Below are positions 12,848-23,524 of a DNA stretch of 44,288 nt, piece by piece; the stretch's first letter is position 1; the number at the start of each line of letters is the position of its first letter. Under the pieces are notes generated by a model that searched no databases, was not told the DNA's origin, and saw nothing but the letters and a program-made list of their open reading frames with translations. Source of the stretch: an uncultured Rhodospirillales bacterium (GTDB taxonomy: Bacteria > Pseudomonadota > Alphaproteobacteria > CACIAM-22H2). The stretch covers positions 1 through 44,288 of the forward strand of contig CAIOSQ010000392.1 in assembly GCA_903860935.1 (NCBI GenBank), in the 5' to 3' direction. A program made the position numbers and the translations under genes.

Positions 12848-13017
12848 GGCTCTCTCCTTCGAGGCTTGTTCGGTCCCGGCTCGTCATCCAGCAGGATGCG
12901 ATGCGCGGCACCATCGAGGTCGTCGAATTGTCCCGCGCGCAACGCCCAGAGAAATGCGCCCAGGCCGATAAGGCCCAGGATTATCGCGAGGGGGATCAGA
13001 AGCAGGAGGGAGTTCAT
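12844..13017 (-). CDS. ccoS: cbb3 oxidase assembly protein CcoS
   Basis: This 57-residue gene is too short for the ORF track. Translation from ATG 13017 gives MNSLLLLIPLAIILGLIGLGAF followed by LWALRAGQFDDLDGAAHRIL. That is one transmembrane helix and the conserved WALRxGQFDDLDGxxxRIL signature of CcoS. CcoS is needed for redox-cofactor insertion into cbb3 oxidase subunits in the inner membrane. Its start overlaps the ccoI stop by ATGA, and its stop overlaps the next small membrane gene the same way, so ccoH-ccoI-ccoS and the 64-residue gene form one coupled chain. Confidence 0.93.
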   Translation of the reverse strand: MNSLLLLIPLAIILGLIGLGAFLWALRAGQFDDLDGAAHRILLDDEPGPNKPRRREP

Positions 13018-19190: not shown

Positions 19191-20663
19191 TCAGGCGCGC
19201 GCGGCGGCCAGGGCCGGAACGCCCGTCGCTTCGGAAGCGACGTCGCCGCGGATGGTGCGCCACAAATTGTAGGCCATGATCAGGGAGCCGCAGACGTAGA
19301 GCAGCCCGCCGATCGCGCGGATCGCGTAGAACGGGCGCATCGCCACCACGGTCTCGACAAACGAGTACTGCAGGAAACCGAGTTCGTCGTAGGCGCGCCA
19401 CATCAGGCCTTGCATGATGCCGCTCACCCACATCGCGGTGATGTAGAGGACGATGCCCAGCGTCGCGATCCAGAAATGCCAGGCGACCAGGCGCGTCGAG
19501 TAGACACGTTCACGCCGCCACAGCACCGGGACCAGATAGTAGAGCGTGCCGAACACGATGAAGCCGACCCAGCCGAGCGCACCGGAATGGACATGGCCGA
19601 TGGTCCAGTCGGTGTAGTGGCTCAGCGCGTTCACCGCCTTGATCGACATGACCGGCCCCTCGAAGGTCGACATGCCGTAGAAGCCGACCGCGGTGACCGA
19701 GAAGCGCAGACCGGGATCCGTGCGCAGCTTGTCCCACGCACCGGCGAGGGTCATGATCCCGTTGATCATGCCGCCCCAACTCGGCATCCAGAGCATGATC
19801 GAGAAAACCATGCCCAGCGTCTGCGCCCAGTCGGGCAGCGCCGTGTAGTGGAGATGGTGCGGCCCAGCCCAGATGTAGAGGAACACCAGCGCCCAGAAAT
19901 GGACGATCGACAGGCGGTACGAATAGACCGGCCGGTCAGCCTGCTTCGGGATGATGTAGTACATCATGCCCAGGAAGCCGGCGGTCAGGAAGAACCCCAC
20001 CGCGTTGTGCCCGTACCACCACTGGATCATCGCGTCCTGGACGCCGGCATAGGCCGAGTAGCTCTTCGCGCCGAACAGCGACACCGGGATCGCGGTGTTG
20101 TTGACGATGTGCAGGACCGCGATCGTCAGGATGAACCCGAGCAGGAACCAGTTCGCGACATAGATATGCGGTTCTTCGCGCTTGAAGATCGTCCCCATGA
20201 ACGCGACCAGGTAGGCGACCCACACGATGGTCAGCCAGAGATCCGCGTACCACTCGGGCTCCGCGTATTCCTTGCTCTGCGTGATGCCGAGGACGTAGCC
20301 GGTCGCGGCGATCAGGATGAAGAACTGGTAGCCGAAGAAGACGAACCATCCGAGCGGCGCGCCGCCGAACAGACGAGCGCGGCAGGTGCGCTGGACGATA
20401 TGCAGCGACGTGCCGATCAGGGCCGTGCCGCCGAAGGCGAAGATCACCGCCGACGTATGAAGCGGCCTCAGCCGTCCGAACGTCGTCCATTCCAGGTCCA
20501 GGTTGAGGGCCGGGAACACCATCTGCAGGGCGATCACCAGCCCGACGGTGAACCCCACCACGCCCCAGAAGATGGACATCACCATGAAGGCGCGCGTCAC
20601 GTCGTCGGCATAGGCCGGCGCGCCTCCTGCGGCCTGCGGCCGCCCGATCGCTGCATCACTCAT
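19191..20663 (-). CDS. ccoN: cbb3 oxidase catalytic subunit CcoN
   Basis: A 490-residue heme-copper oxidase subunit I of the C family, the oxygen-reducing and proton-pumping subunit in the inner membrane. Helix segments hold the expected histidines: [31 protein letters not shown] with the covalent-link tyrosine helix [13 protein letters not shown], the copper ligands in [13 protein letters not shown], and [15 protein letters not shown] choose ATG 20663 (MSDAAIG) with GGGGG upstream. ATG 20681 has AGGA too close to it, and the track start 20714 extends into an inverted repeat. It is the first gene of ccoNOQP-GHIS and divergent from a DUF2189 gene. Confidence 0.95.
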
Positions 20664-20695
20664 CCGAACCCCCGTCTTCATTCCTGTCGGAGTAA

Positions 20696-20721
20696 GCCGC
20701 GACTTAAAAACCATTCGCGGC
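20696..20721. repeat. Inverted repeat in the ccoN leader
   Basis: GCCGCGA and TCGCGGC arms are separated by a 12-base AT-rich spacer (cttaaaaaccat), 33 bases upstream of ccoN. It could be a leader hairpin or an operator. No classical FNR/FixK box (TTGAT-N4-ATCAA) is seen nearby. Confidence 0.4.
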
Positions 20722-20789
20722 TTGCGGATATGACGCGGTTCGGTGCTGCTCGCCCATGCGACACATTGTTACTGTGCGCGATCGTCGCA

Positions 20790-20804
20790 GCGACGTGTTG
20801 TCGC
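20790..20804. promoter_or_regulatory. RegA/PrrA-like site upstream of ccoN
   Basis: GCGAC-GTGTT-GTCGC matches the RegA/PrrA half-site pattern GCGRC-N5-GNCGC and is perfectly symmetric in its arms. It lies about 127 bases before the ccoN start and 65 before the divergent DUF2189 gene. Redox control of ccoNOQP by RegBA/PrrBA is known in Rhodobacter. The regulator is not in this window, so this is a candidate site. Confidence 0.45.
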
Positions 20805-20868
20805 ATGCGGCTCGGCGGTCCCGACATGTCAACTCGCGACAAGACAGAGTCACATGGAGGAGACCATC

Positions 20869-21654
20869 ATGACCCAGTCGAAAGCGGGCTTCGACCGTCA
20901 GGCAGCGCGGATACGGACCGTGGAAATCGATCGTCCATGGATCTGGCTCGCGTGCGGATGGAAGGACATTCTCGCCGCGCCACGCGTCAGCCTCGTCTAT
21001 GGCGGCACCATCGCGGCCGCCAGCGTCCTGCTTTGGGCGACGCTTGTCGCCTTCGAAACGATCTACTTGCTGCTGCCGCTCGCGGCCGGGTTCTTCCTGG
21101 TGGCGCCGCTGATCGCGGTCGGCCTCTACGAGACGAGCCGCCGACTAGCGGCGCATGAACCCGTGTCGCTCGGCCATGCGCTGGGCGCGGTGCGGCGCAA
21201 CGGCACCCAGGTCGCCCTGCTCGGTGTCGCCCTGATGCTGCTGCATCTCCTCTGGGTGCGCATCGCGACACTGCTCTTCGCGCTCTTTTTCGACCGCGCG
21301 CATCCGACATGGGGCAGCATCATAGATACCGTTTTCTTCTCTTCCGTCAGCCTGCCTTTCCTGGTCACCGGCAGCATCGTCGGCTTCGTGCTCGCGGTCG
21401 TCGCCTTCGCCATCGGTGCCCTGTCCATCCCCATGCTGATCGATCGCGACGTCGACGTCTTCGCCGCGATCGTCGCGAGCGTGAGCGCCGTGCGCGCGAA
21501 CTGGCGCCCGATGGCGCTCTGGGCAGCCCTGATCGTCGTCTTCACCGCGGTCGGCATGGCGACCTTCTTCGTCGGCCTCGCCATCGCGCTGCCCCTGATC
21601 GGGCACGCCACGTGGCACGCCTACAAGGATCTGGTCGATCCGGCGCCTTGCTGA
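20869..21654 (+). CDS. DUF2189-family membrane protein
   Basis: A 261-residue integral membrane protein with about six helices. It begins MTQSKAGFDRQAARIRTVEIDRPWIWLACGWKD, matching DUF2189 proteins, which carry a conserved WL..GW.D entry segment. It has the internal APLIAVGLYETSRRLAAHEP segment and ends in GHATWHAYKDLV. No biochemical role is established to my knowledge. ATG 20869 has GGAGGAG upstream; the 42 extra track residues are non-coding. It is divergent from ccoN across 205 bases containing the RegA-like site. Family members are often near cytochrome oxidase genes, so a link to respiratory membrane biogenesis is plausible but unproved. Confidence 0.82.
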   Translation: MTQSKAGFDRQAARIRTVEIDRPWIWLACGWKDILAAPRVSLVYGGTIAAASVLLWATLVAFETIYLLLPLAAGFFLVAPLIAVGLYETSRRLAAHEPVSLGHALGAVRRNGTQVALLGVALMLLHLLWVRIATLLFALFFDRAHPTWGSIIDTVFFSSVSLPFLVTGSIVGFVLAVVAFAIGALSIPMLIDRDVDVFAAIVASVSAVRANWRPMALWAALIVVFTAVGMATFFVGLAIALPLIGHATWHAYKDLVDPAPC

Positions 21655-21670
21655 GGCGCGGGATCGACGC

Positions 21671-22408
21671 TCACGCGACCAGACGCCAGGCCATTGCCAG
21701 AAGCAGGATCGCCGACGCCAGCAGGGCAATCGGCGCGAGAAATGCGGTCAGCCCCCTCCAGCGGCGGCCGAACACTGCGCCGGCCCAGCCGACGCCGATC
21801 AGTCCTGGCATCGTGCCCAGCGCGAAGGCGCCCATCGCCGCCGCGCCGCGCGCCGGATCTCCCGCCGCCGCCGCCGCCGCCAGCGCCGCGTAGATCAAGC
21901 CGCAGGGCAGGAAGCCGAGGACCATGCCCAGGGCATAGCCGCGCCAGCCCGTCGGATCCGCTATCAGGTTTCGCGCCATCGCCGGAGGCTGCGCTGGCAG
22001 GAACCGCACCAGGATGCGGTCCAACACACCGAGGCTCCGCCCAACGGCCTGCGCCAGCATGGCGAAAGCGGCAAGCGCGAGCAGCGTCGCGGCAGCGACC
22101 CGGAATGCAGCCATGTTGGCGATGAAGCCGACCATCCCGCCAGCGGCGGCGCCCAACCCAGCGTAGGTGGTCAGCCGCCCGAGATGGTAGGGCAGCAAAG
22201 CCGCACCGCGCAGGCGCTGCAGCACACCATAGCCGGCGGCGCGGCGCTCGGGCCTGTCCAGGGCGGCGCCGACCTGGGCGATAACGAAGGGACCGCACAT
22301 GCCCACGCAATGGGTAAGGCTGCCGGCGAGGCCGCTCAGGAAAAGAGCGAAAAAGAGCCCGAGCGGCTCTCCGAAAATCTCGACGGCCGGGACCGGGATG
22401 GAGTGCAT
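21671..22408 (-). CDS. Sulfite exporter TauE/SafE (DsbD_2)-like membrane protein
   Basis: A 245-residue protein with six or seven helices. The motif SLTHCVGMCGPFVIAQ in the first helix and GFLPCGLIYAALAAA in the middle are typical of the TauE/SafE-DsbD_2 proteins that accompany cbb3 genes. The paired cysteines and methionine are thought to handle copper or thiols. The start is unusual: ATG 22408 shares its A with the CCA end of the upstream tRNA-Arg, and no other ATG, GTG or TTG occurs in frame before the first helix is complete. The only Shine-Dalgarno-like bases (AGGG) lie in the tRNA acceptor stem. It is convergent with the DUF2189 gene, 16 bases away. Confidence 0.85.
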   Translation of the reverse strand: MHSIPVPAVEIFGEPLGLFFALFLSGLAGSLTHCVGMCGPFVIAQVGAALDRPERRAAGYGVLQRLRGAALLPYHLGRLTTYAGLGAAAGGMVGFIANMAAFRVAAATLLALAAFAMLAQAVGRSLGVLDRILVRFLPAQPPAMARNLIADPTGWRGYALGMVLGFLPCGLIYAALAAAAAAGDPARGAAAMGAFALGTMPGLIGVGWAGAVFGRRWRGLTAFLAPIALLASAILLLAMAWRLVA

Positions 22409-22484
22409 GGCGCGCCCTGCTGGATTCGAACCAGCGACCTACAGCTTAGAAGGCTGTTGCTCTATCCGGCTGAGCTAAGGGCGC
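22408..22484 (-). tRNA. tRNA-Arg (anticodon TCT)
   Basis: The minus strand folds as a complete cloverleaf. The acceptor is GCGCCCT/AGGGCGC, the D arm GCTC..GAGC, and the anticodon arm ACAGC-CTTCTAA-GCTGT with anticodon TCT. The T arm is GCTGG-TTCGAAT-CCAGC, with discriminator G and an encoded CCA. The final A is also the first base of the ATG of the TauE-like gene. It starts 7 bases after the NDUFS4-like gene stops. Confidence 0.97.
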
Positions 22485-22491
22485 CCATCGC

Positions 22492-22791
22492 TCAGCGCAC
22501 GCGAACGTAGCTGAAATTGTCGGCGTAGGCCCGCAGCTTCAACGAAGACTGCTGCGCGGTGCCGATGGTGTACTCGAGGCCCATGCGCGACGCGTAGGCC
22601 TCTGCTTCCTCGCGCGTCGCGAAGGCGAGTTGGACCTGAGCGCCGGTGTCCGACGACCCCGACCAGCCCATCAGCGGATCGGGCCGCTTGGCGCCGGACG
22701 GCTCGAACTCGAGGATCCAGTCCTTGGTCTTGCCCTTGCCGGACTGCATCGCGGAACGGGCGGGCTTGTAGATGCGGGCTTGCGCGGCCAT
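22492..22791 (-). CDS. Complex I NDUFS4-like accessory subunit
   Basis: A 99-residue soluble protein of the NDUFS4 (ETC complex I subunit) family. It begins ARIYKPARSAMQSGKGKTKDWILEFEP and contains the conserved PLMGWSGSSDTGAQVQLAFATREEAEAYA and YADNFSYVRVR segments. This accessory subunit of NADH:quinone oxidoreductase is shared by Alphaproteobacteria and mitochondria. There it binds at the peripheral arm and stabilises the complex. The core nuo genes are not in the window. It is sandwiched between tRNA-Pro and tRNA-Arg in the same direction and is likely cotranscribed with them. Confidence 0.92.
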   Translation of the reverse strand: MAAQARIYKPARSAMQSGKGKTKDWILEFEPSGAKRPDPLMGWSGSSDTGAQVQLAFATREEAEAYASRMGLEYTIGTAQQSSLKLRAYADNFSYVRVR

Positions 22792-22855
22792 GGGTCAGCT
22801 TCCGGAGTGGTTTCGGCGACACGTCCATGCGGAACCGGTAGTCGGCGCCGCGGCG

Positions 22856-22932
22856 TGGTCGGAGCGGCGGGATTCGAACTCGCGACATCCAGCTCCCAAA
22901 GCTGGCGCTCTACCAGGCTGAGCTACGCTCCG
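22856..22932 (-). tRNA. tRNA-Pro (anticodon TGG)
   Basis: The minus-strand cloverleaf has acceptor CGGAGCG/CGCTCCG and D arm GCTC..GAGC. The anticodon arm is CCAGC-TTTGGGA-GCTGG with anticodon TGG, and the T arm GCGAG-TTCGAAT-CCCGC. Discriminator A and an encoded CCA follow. It is transcribed toward the NDUFS4-like gene. Confidence 0.97.
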
Positions 22933-22960
22933 ACAGCCGCGCGCCGACATCGGCCAAGGG

Positions 22961-22989
22961 GGTATAGGCGAACGGGGCTGGCGCCGCAA
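22961..22989 (-). promoter_or_regulatory. Predicted sigma70-type promoter for tRNA-Pro
   Basis: On the minus strand TTGCGG, a 17-base spacer and TATACC lie 28 bases before the tRNA-Pro 5' end. Spacing and distance are right for a housekeeping promoter. It would drive tRNA-Pro and, by read-through, the NDUFS4-like gene, tRNA-Arg and the TauE-like gene. Confidence 0.6.
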
Positions 22990-23038
22990 GAACGCGGCGC
23001 GCTGCCTGCCGTCGTAAAAGCCGCCCGGCGCGGGACCC

Positions 23039-23524
23039 TCAGGGCGCGTTACGGAAGATCGGATGGCGGACGACATCGCCGGGGGCGAGCCCCAGGCGCG
23101 CCGCCGTGCCGCCATTGAGTTCGAGGACGCTGCGCACCGGCCCCTCGGAACCGATCGACGTCTCGTCGAAAGGCACCGCGCGCGCGTGGATGTTGACCAC
23201 CCTGCCCTCGCGATCGATGAACAGCATGTCGAGCGGGATGCGGGTGTTGCGCATCCACATCGCGACCGGTTGGTCGCGCTTGAAGTCGAAGATCATGCCG
23301 TGATCGGCGGGCATCGTATCGCGATGCATGAGGCCATAGGCACGCCGTTCGTCGGTATCGGCCAGTTCCACGGTGAAGCGATGGACCTTGCCGCCGCGGG
23401 CCTCGATCGTCAGTTCGGAGCGGGGAAAGCTGGGCGCGCGCAACGAGGACTGTGCCCAGGCGGGATATCCCGACAGGACAAGTGTCGTCGCGGCGGCGAA
23501 GAGGGCAAGACGGCGTCCGATCAT
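23039..23524 (-). CDS. DUF192-family exported protein
   Basis: A 161-residue protein with a signal peptide (MIGRRLALFAAATTLVLSGYPAWAQ) and a single DUF192 domain. Family hallmarks are ERRAYGLMHRDTMPADHGMIFDF, MWMRNTRIPLDMLFIDREGRVV and the C-terminal VLELNGGTAARLGLAPGDVV. The function is unknown; the protein is probably periplasmic. I take ATG 23524 because it gives a clean signal peptide, although it has no clear ribosome site. TTG 23563, the track start, would overlap the upstream deacetylase gene. It is probably cotranscribed with that gene. Confidence 0.85.
   Translation of the reverse strand: MIGRRLALFAAATTLVLSGYPAWAQSSLRAPSFPRSELTIEARGGKVHRFTVELADTDERRAYGLMHRDTMPADHGMIFDFKRDQPVAMWMRNTRIPLDMLFIDREGRVVNIHARAVPFDETSIGSEGPVRSVLELNGGTAARLGLAPGDVVRHPIFRNAP

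Follow-up and report, generated by a model that had tools for sequence, protein, structure and literature searches.

One nucleotide shared by a tRNA-Arg gene and the start codon of a DsbD_2-family gene in an uncultured Rhodospirillales bacterium

Bacterial tRNAs and mRNAs can be parts of the same transcript, as in thrU-tufB and metY-nusA of Escherichia coli, and in mitochondria the excision of tRNAs (tRNA punctuation) defines the 5' end of leaderless or nearly leaderless mRNAs. The locus described here, from an uncultured Rhodospirillales bacterium, resembles both systems: as in the E. coli pairs, a tRNA gene and a protein gene have the same orientation and are expected to be co-transcribed into RNA that requires processing and, as in mitochondria, the end of the tRNA adjoins or overlaps the message. 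However, the messages of thrU-tufB and metY-nusA keep a leader after excision of the tRNA, whereas at this locus nothing separates the tRNA from the gene, and the start codon forms part of the tRNA. Likewise, animal mitochondrial tRNAs lack an encoded CCA and the cut can spare the message, but here the CCA is encoded and is common to the AUG. Cleavage between the two Cs of an encoded CCA has been mapped in Propionibacterium acnes (PMC3848588) and Streptomyces coelicolor (PMC4681348), with subsequent repair by nucleotidyltransferase proposed by the authors of both papers; such a cut would leave here an intact AUG and a repairable tRNA, although these papers describe the cut in actinobacteria only, in passages that make no link to an overlapping gene. 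A search limited to the open-access literature, with subscription papers outside its scope, returned no described case of a bacterial tRNA overlapping a start codon.

The window, the whole stretch of 44,288 nucleotides that we analysed, is one contig (C392) of a 4.59-Mb genome assembly of 468 contigs. On its minus strand, the tRNA-Arg(UCU) ends in AGGGCGC-G-CCA, with the CCA at positions 22410-22408, and the ATG of the following open reading frame (ORF) occupies positions 22408-22406, an overlap of one nucleotide (Table 1). A preliminary description of this DNA had proposed that the gene starts on the final A of the CCA, and the tRNA end assigned by ARAGORN and the start of the ORF indeed coincide. 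The overlap is real and unusual.

Table 1. Coordinates of the features at and around the junction.
Feature	Coordinates	Strand	Evidence
tRNA-Pro(UGG), which opens the tRNA-Pro - NDUS4 - tRNA-Arg block	22856..22932	-	ARAGORN
NDUS4-like protein, 99 aa, just 5' of tRNA-Arg	22492..22791	-	PF04800, E 5.5e-33
tRNA-Arg, anticodon UCU, CCA encoded	22408..22484	-	ARAGORN; Rfam tRNA, 73.3 bits
In-frame TAG stop within tRNA-Arg, closing the ORF frame upstream	22439..22441	-	Translation of the upstream frame
AGGG, sole Shine-Dalgarno-like bases, 6 nt 5' of ATG, in the acceptor stem	22415..22418	-	Sequence; fold prediction
Nucleotide shared by the last A of the tRNA CCA and the A of ATG	22408..22408	-	Sequence; ARAGORN end and ORF start coincide
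DsbD_2-family (PF13386) membrane protein, 245 aa	21671..22408	-	Pfam, E 1.6e-36; start register with homologues
DUF2189 membrane protein, gene convergent with DsbD_2; coordinates of the longest ORF, true start may be internal	20743..21654	+	PF09955, E 3.8e-37
ccoN-like gene (COX1 family)	19191..20714	-	PF00115

The product of this ORF, initially described as TauE-like, is better named for the DsbD_2 family, which it matches over residues 22-233 with 126.6 bits, against a Pfam gathering cut-off of 24.9. The ORF is intact and its codon-position GC is normal. Neither ATG, GTG nor TTG occurs in the ten codons between the upstream TAG and the ATG, and the next in-frame starts, GTG at +102 and ATG at +108, fall within the first membrane helix and beyond a conserved His-Cys motif, bearing out the earlier statement that no other such start is available before that helix; rarer starts, such as an ATT at codon 11, are without support. 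The ATG lies 32 codons before the motif His, the same distance as the GTG start of the closest relative with a DsbD_2 gene (G003, 67 percent identity) and the GTG or TTG starts of homologues L008, L010 and L013; it is 33 codons from ATG in L009, L011 and L018, and 35-36 codons in L003, L005, L007 and L017. Because the starts of relatives fall in the same register before the His-Cys motif, the ATG at 22408 appears a credible start, and the tRNA would therefore adjoin a long-established start site.

As the preliminary description had also pointed out, the only Shine-Dalgarno-like bases are inside the acceptor stem, where the fold predicted for the tRNA with its mRNA tail gives the AGGG an unpaired probability of 0.00 and leaves the AU of the AUG almost fully unpaired. 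A four-base Shine-Dalgarno match precedes 9 of the 23 genes of the window and is missing from the other 14, compared with 15 percent of randomly chosen positions, so that its absence is ordinary for the genes of this genome's window. Most genes of Caulobacter also lack a Shine-Dalgarno sequence (PMC4117421).

The tRNA itself shows a cloverleaf, the UCU anticodon and an acceptor stem paired up to the 3' CCA end (ARAGORN, Rfam). It was the only UCU tRNA found in the genome by a pattern search and by a tRNA survey made on retrieved stretches of its contigs, and this single-copy arginine tRNA, which carries the overlap, is essential. The arrangement tRNA-Pro(UGG) - NDUS4 - tRNA-Arg(UCU) is widespread in the class, with either tRNA sometimes absent near NDUS4. 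Sequences 3' of tRNA-Arg(UCU) differ among relatives, among which only L038 also reads CCATG, without a long ORF. In the window the tRNA is closely flanked on its 5' side too, with just 7 nt (22485-22491) between it and the NDUS4 stop codon. In a sister genome (G002), contig C192 (L029) breaks off about 32 nt beyond NDUS4, close to or within tRNA-Arg, which may point to a site that is variable or difficult to assemble. We considered and rejected the integration of a mobile element at tRNA-Arg, as a search allowing up to 3 mismatches found the tRNA 3' end only once in the window; one other site in the genome, G000:C441:22216-22237 (L027), matches this end with 3 mismatches.

On the opposite side of the junction, a cluster for a cbb3 oxidase runs on from ccoN through ccoO, P, G, H and I down to position 13014 (FixO, FixP, FixG, FixH and E1-E2 ATPase matches). 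The order DsbD_2 - DUF2189 - ccoN is kept in five relatives (G003, G004, G006, G014 and G022), in association with the cco cluster, and the block conserved in the family comprises DsbD_2 - DUF2189 - ccoN - ccoO - ccoP - ccoG, usually with ccoH and ccoI. No DsbD_2 homologue in the family adjoins a tRNA: in G003, for instance, contigs C59 and C58 carry the tRNA block and the DsbD_2-cco block, respectively, and other genes precede DsbD_2. Of all genomes examined, this is the only one in which the blocks adjoin, and the join falls precisely at the tRNA end. The check on conservation that had been suggested with the first observation of the overlap thus shows that it is not shared, the junction being absent from the family relatives that have the gene and from the other sampled genomes of the class, and we found no conserved regulatory overlap.

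We also examined how often CCATG occurs at the end of tRNAs. The tRNA-Arg(UCU) is followed by this sequence in five of 385 genomes of the class, including this one, and just one of the cases in the 384 others (four) opens a long ORF. This ORF (L140, 1544-2746, in G083) encodes a 401-aa alpha/beta hydrolase with a signal-like N-terminal stretch, and shows an identical one-base overlap with the CCA of the same isoacceptor. It differs from our locus in that the protein is unrelated, the genome belongs to a different bacterial family, and the true start could be a GTG that lies in frame 27 nt downstream. We then pooled these tRNA-Arg(UCU)-CCATG cases with those of a general tRNA pattern applied to 115 genomes, giving at least 77 confirmed tRNAs with CCATG, at least 13 of which open ORFs of 60 aa or longer (the window's included in both counts). 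Besides the window gene, plausibly only L140 looks like a gene starting at CCATG among the matches listed. L253, in which the MgtE domain does not start until residue 106 of the protein, was discarded as an overlap case in favour of a likelier internal start; the ORFs of L248 and L256 had no Pfam match, the family search having covered the longer of the 13 ORFs. Similarly, L227 and L247 were discarded for reading into NDUS4-like genes that have nearer internal starts. In these two distant genomes, CCATG follows tRNA-Pro(UGG) in frame with the NDUS4-like gene, and a one-base overlap can therefore also appear in the upstream half of the tRNA-Pro - NDUS4 - tRNA-Arg block. Overall, the overlap turns up at a low frequency and next to unrelated genes, as expected by chance.

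We consider it likely, if far from certain, that the junction is lineage-specific, that two blocks conserved independently of each other were brought together by a rearrangement or deletion, and that any coupling between tRNA and protein is a by-product rather than an evolved control. Such an event would have joined tRNA-Pro - NDUS4 - tRNA-Arg to DsbD_2 - DUF2189 - ccoNOPGHI, leaving both just intact with one base in common; we infer the direction of change, a join here rather than a split in all sampled relatives, from the majority state, and the rearranged context is visible only up to the contig ends of this fragmented assembly. A sigma-70-like scan of positions 21600-23100, with promoters of other sigma factors outside its scope, found neither promoter-like nor terminator-like sites. 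With no spacer or terminator-like site, any transcript containing tRNA-Arg should extend into the DsbD_2 ORF, and the sequence suggests that the DsbD_2 message would be the 3' trailer of the tRNA. In the general model, as given in PMC4681348, RNase E cuts in the trailer and the RNA is then trimmed to the CCA; the genome encodes RNase E, RNase D and RNase PH, and usual maturation here would consist of a cut by RNase E and trimming by RNase D or PH. Trimming to the CCA would take away the A of the AUG, destroying that copy of the message. Since the tRNA-Arg(UCU) is single copy, it must be processed, and the protein would be made at a low level, either from molecules that are spared tRNA processing or from ones whose 5' end lies elsewhere; moreover, initiation led by the AGGG on unprocessed RNA should be poor, because these bases are fully paired in the folded tRNA. 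The earlier proposal therefore stands in one part, namely that a cut after the CCA removes the A of the AUG so that each transcript yields either tRNA or mRNA, which holds at the level of sequence, where there is no spacer. Its other part, that tRNA processing ties protein output as a form of control, finds no support in conservation, with no homologue of the family lying beside a tRNA. Against a mere by-product, the DsbD_2 gene is probably expressed well enough to be kept, judging from its intact ORF, normal codon-position GC and start in place, whereas an accident that did only harm should have been followed by decay of the gene.

An mRNA independent of tRNA processing could arise from a promoter of the DsbD_2 gene itself, within the NDUS4 gene or the tRNA. 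One would expect a gene associated with the cbb3 oxidase to require separate control, and leaderless and short-leader mRNAs are common in Caulobacter (PMC4117421); however, neither the sigma-70-like scan nor a search for FNR-like boxes near the gene, which found none above chance, offers a candidate, and a leader holding most of the tRNA would be predicted to fold, hiding the Shine-Dalgarno-like bases. We regard this possibility as unlikely, and as slightly less likely still a cut between the Cs of the CCA, or just before it, that would release a nearly leaderless mRNA beginning 5'-CAUG or 5'-CCAUG while a nucleotidyltransferase rebuilds the CCA, so that both products survive. The precedents in P. 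acnes and S. coelicolor favour such a cut, as do the one protein of the PolyA_pol/CCA-adding family encoded in this genome, the weak structure of the first 32 nt from CCAUG (-3.9 kcal/mol) and the 375 leaderless mRNAs that the alphaproteobacterium Caulobacter translates at normal efficiency (PMC4117421). Against it, we found no report of such cleavage for alphaproteobacteria, and E. coli lacks it according to PMC4681348. Cleavage before the CCA by RNase Z was rejected, since no protein of the genome exceeds the curated cut-off, the best match being a generic metallo-beta-lactamase. The fuller version, in which an endonuclease splits the encoded CCA between the Cs, CCA addition repairs the tRNA and the 5'-CAUG product serves as the leaderless message for a cbb3-linked protein, such that tRNA processing creates the start of the mRNA, seems to us distinctly improbable.

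Much less credible is a dedicated switch, in which the ratio between tRNA maturation and translation would set DsbD_2 output and the protein would sense tRNA processing or demand for arginine-tRNA. Although the two products are mutually exclusive for each molecule if the cut falls after the CCA, the junction is conserved in no relative, and a single-copy tRNA should be processed almost completely, leaving little to translate; we know of no functional link between AGA decoding and the DsbD_2 protein. A wrong joining of the two blocks in a metagenome bin would account for the synteny break exactly at the tRNA and for the sister contig that stops near the same point. Nevertheless, tetranucleotide composition differs less across the join (distance 0.091) than within either side (0.145 between halves), one genus gives the matches to both sides, with comparable identities, and the tRNA occurs only once. 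Furthermore, the junction lies outside any shared repeat, the place where a de Bruijn assembler misjoins; if such an assembler was used, reads crossing the junction should exist. An assembly error thus appears unlikely, and we give it as little credence as the switch.

We regard the junction as a curiosity, probably an accident of this lineage, and its regulatory reading is weak because only this genome joins the two conserved blocks and the overlap is absent in relatives. Even so, with one base common to the start codon and the tRNA end, the survival of a translatable message depends on where the 3' cleavage falls, making the locus a natural test case. If the protein is made, something besides plain trimming after the CCA must occur, and the locus would show how CCA-encoded tRNAs are processed in alphaproteobacteria; if it is not made, the locus would illustrate how a gene can be silenced by a rearrangement beside a tRNA even though its reading frame stays intact.
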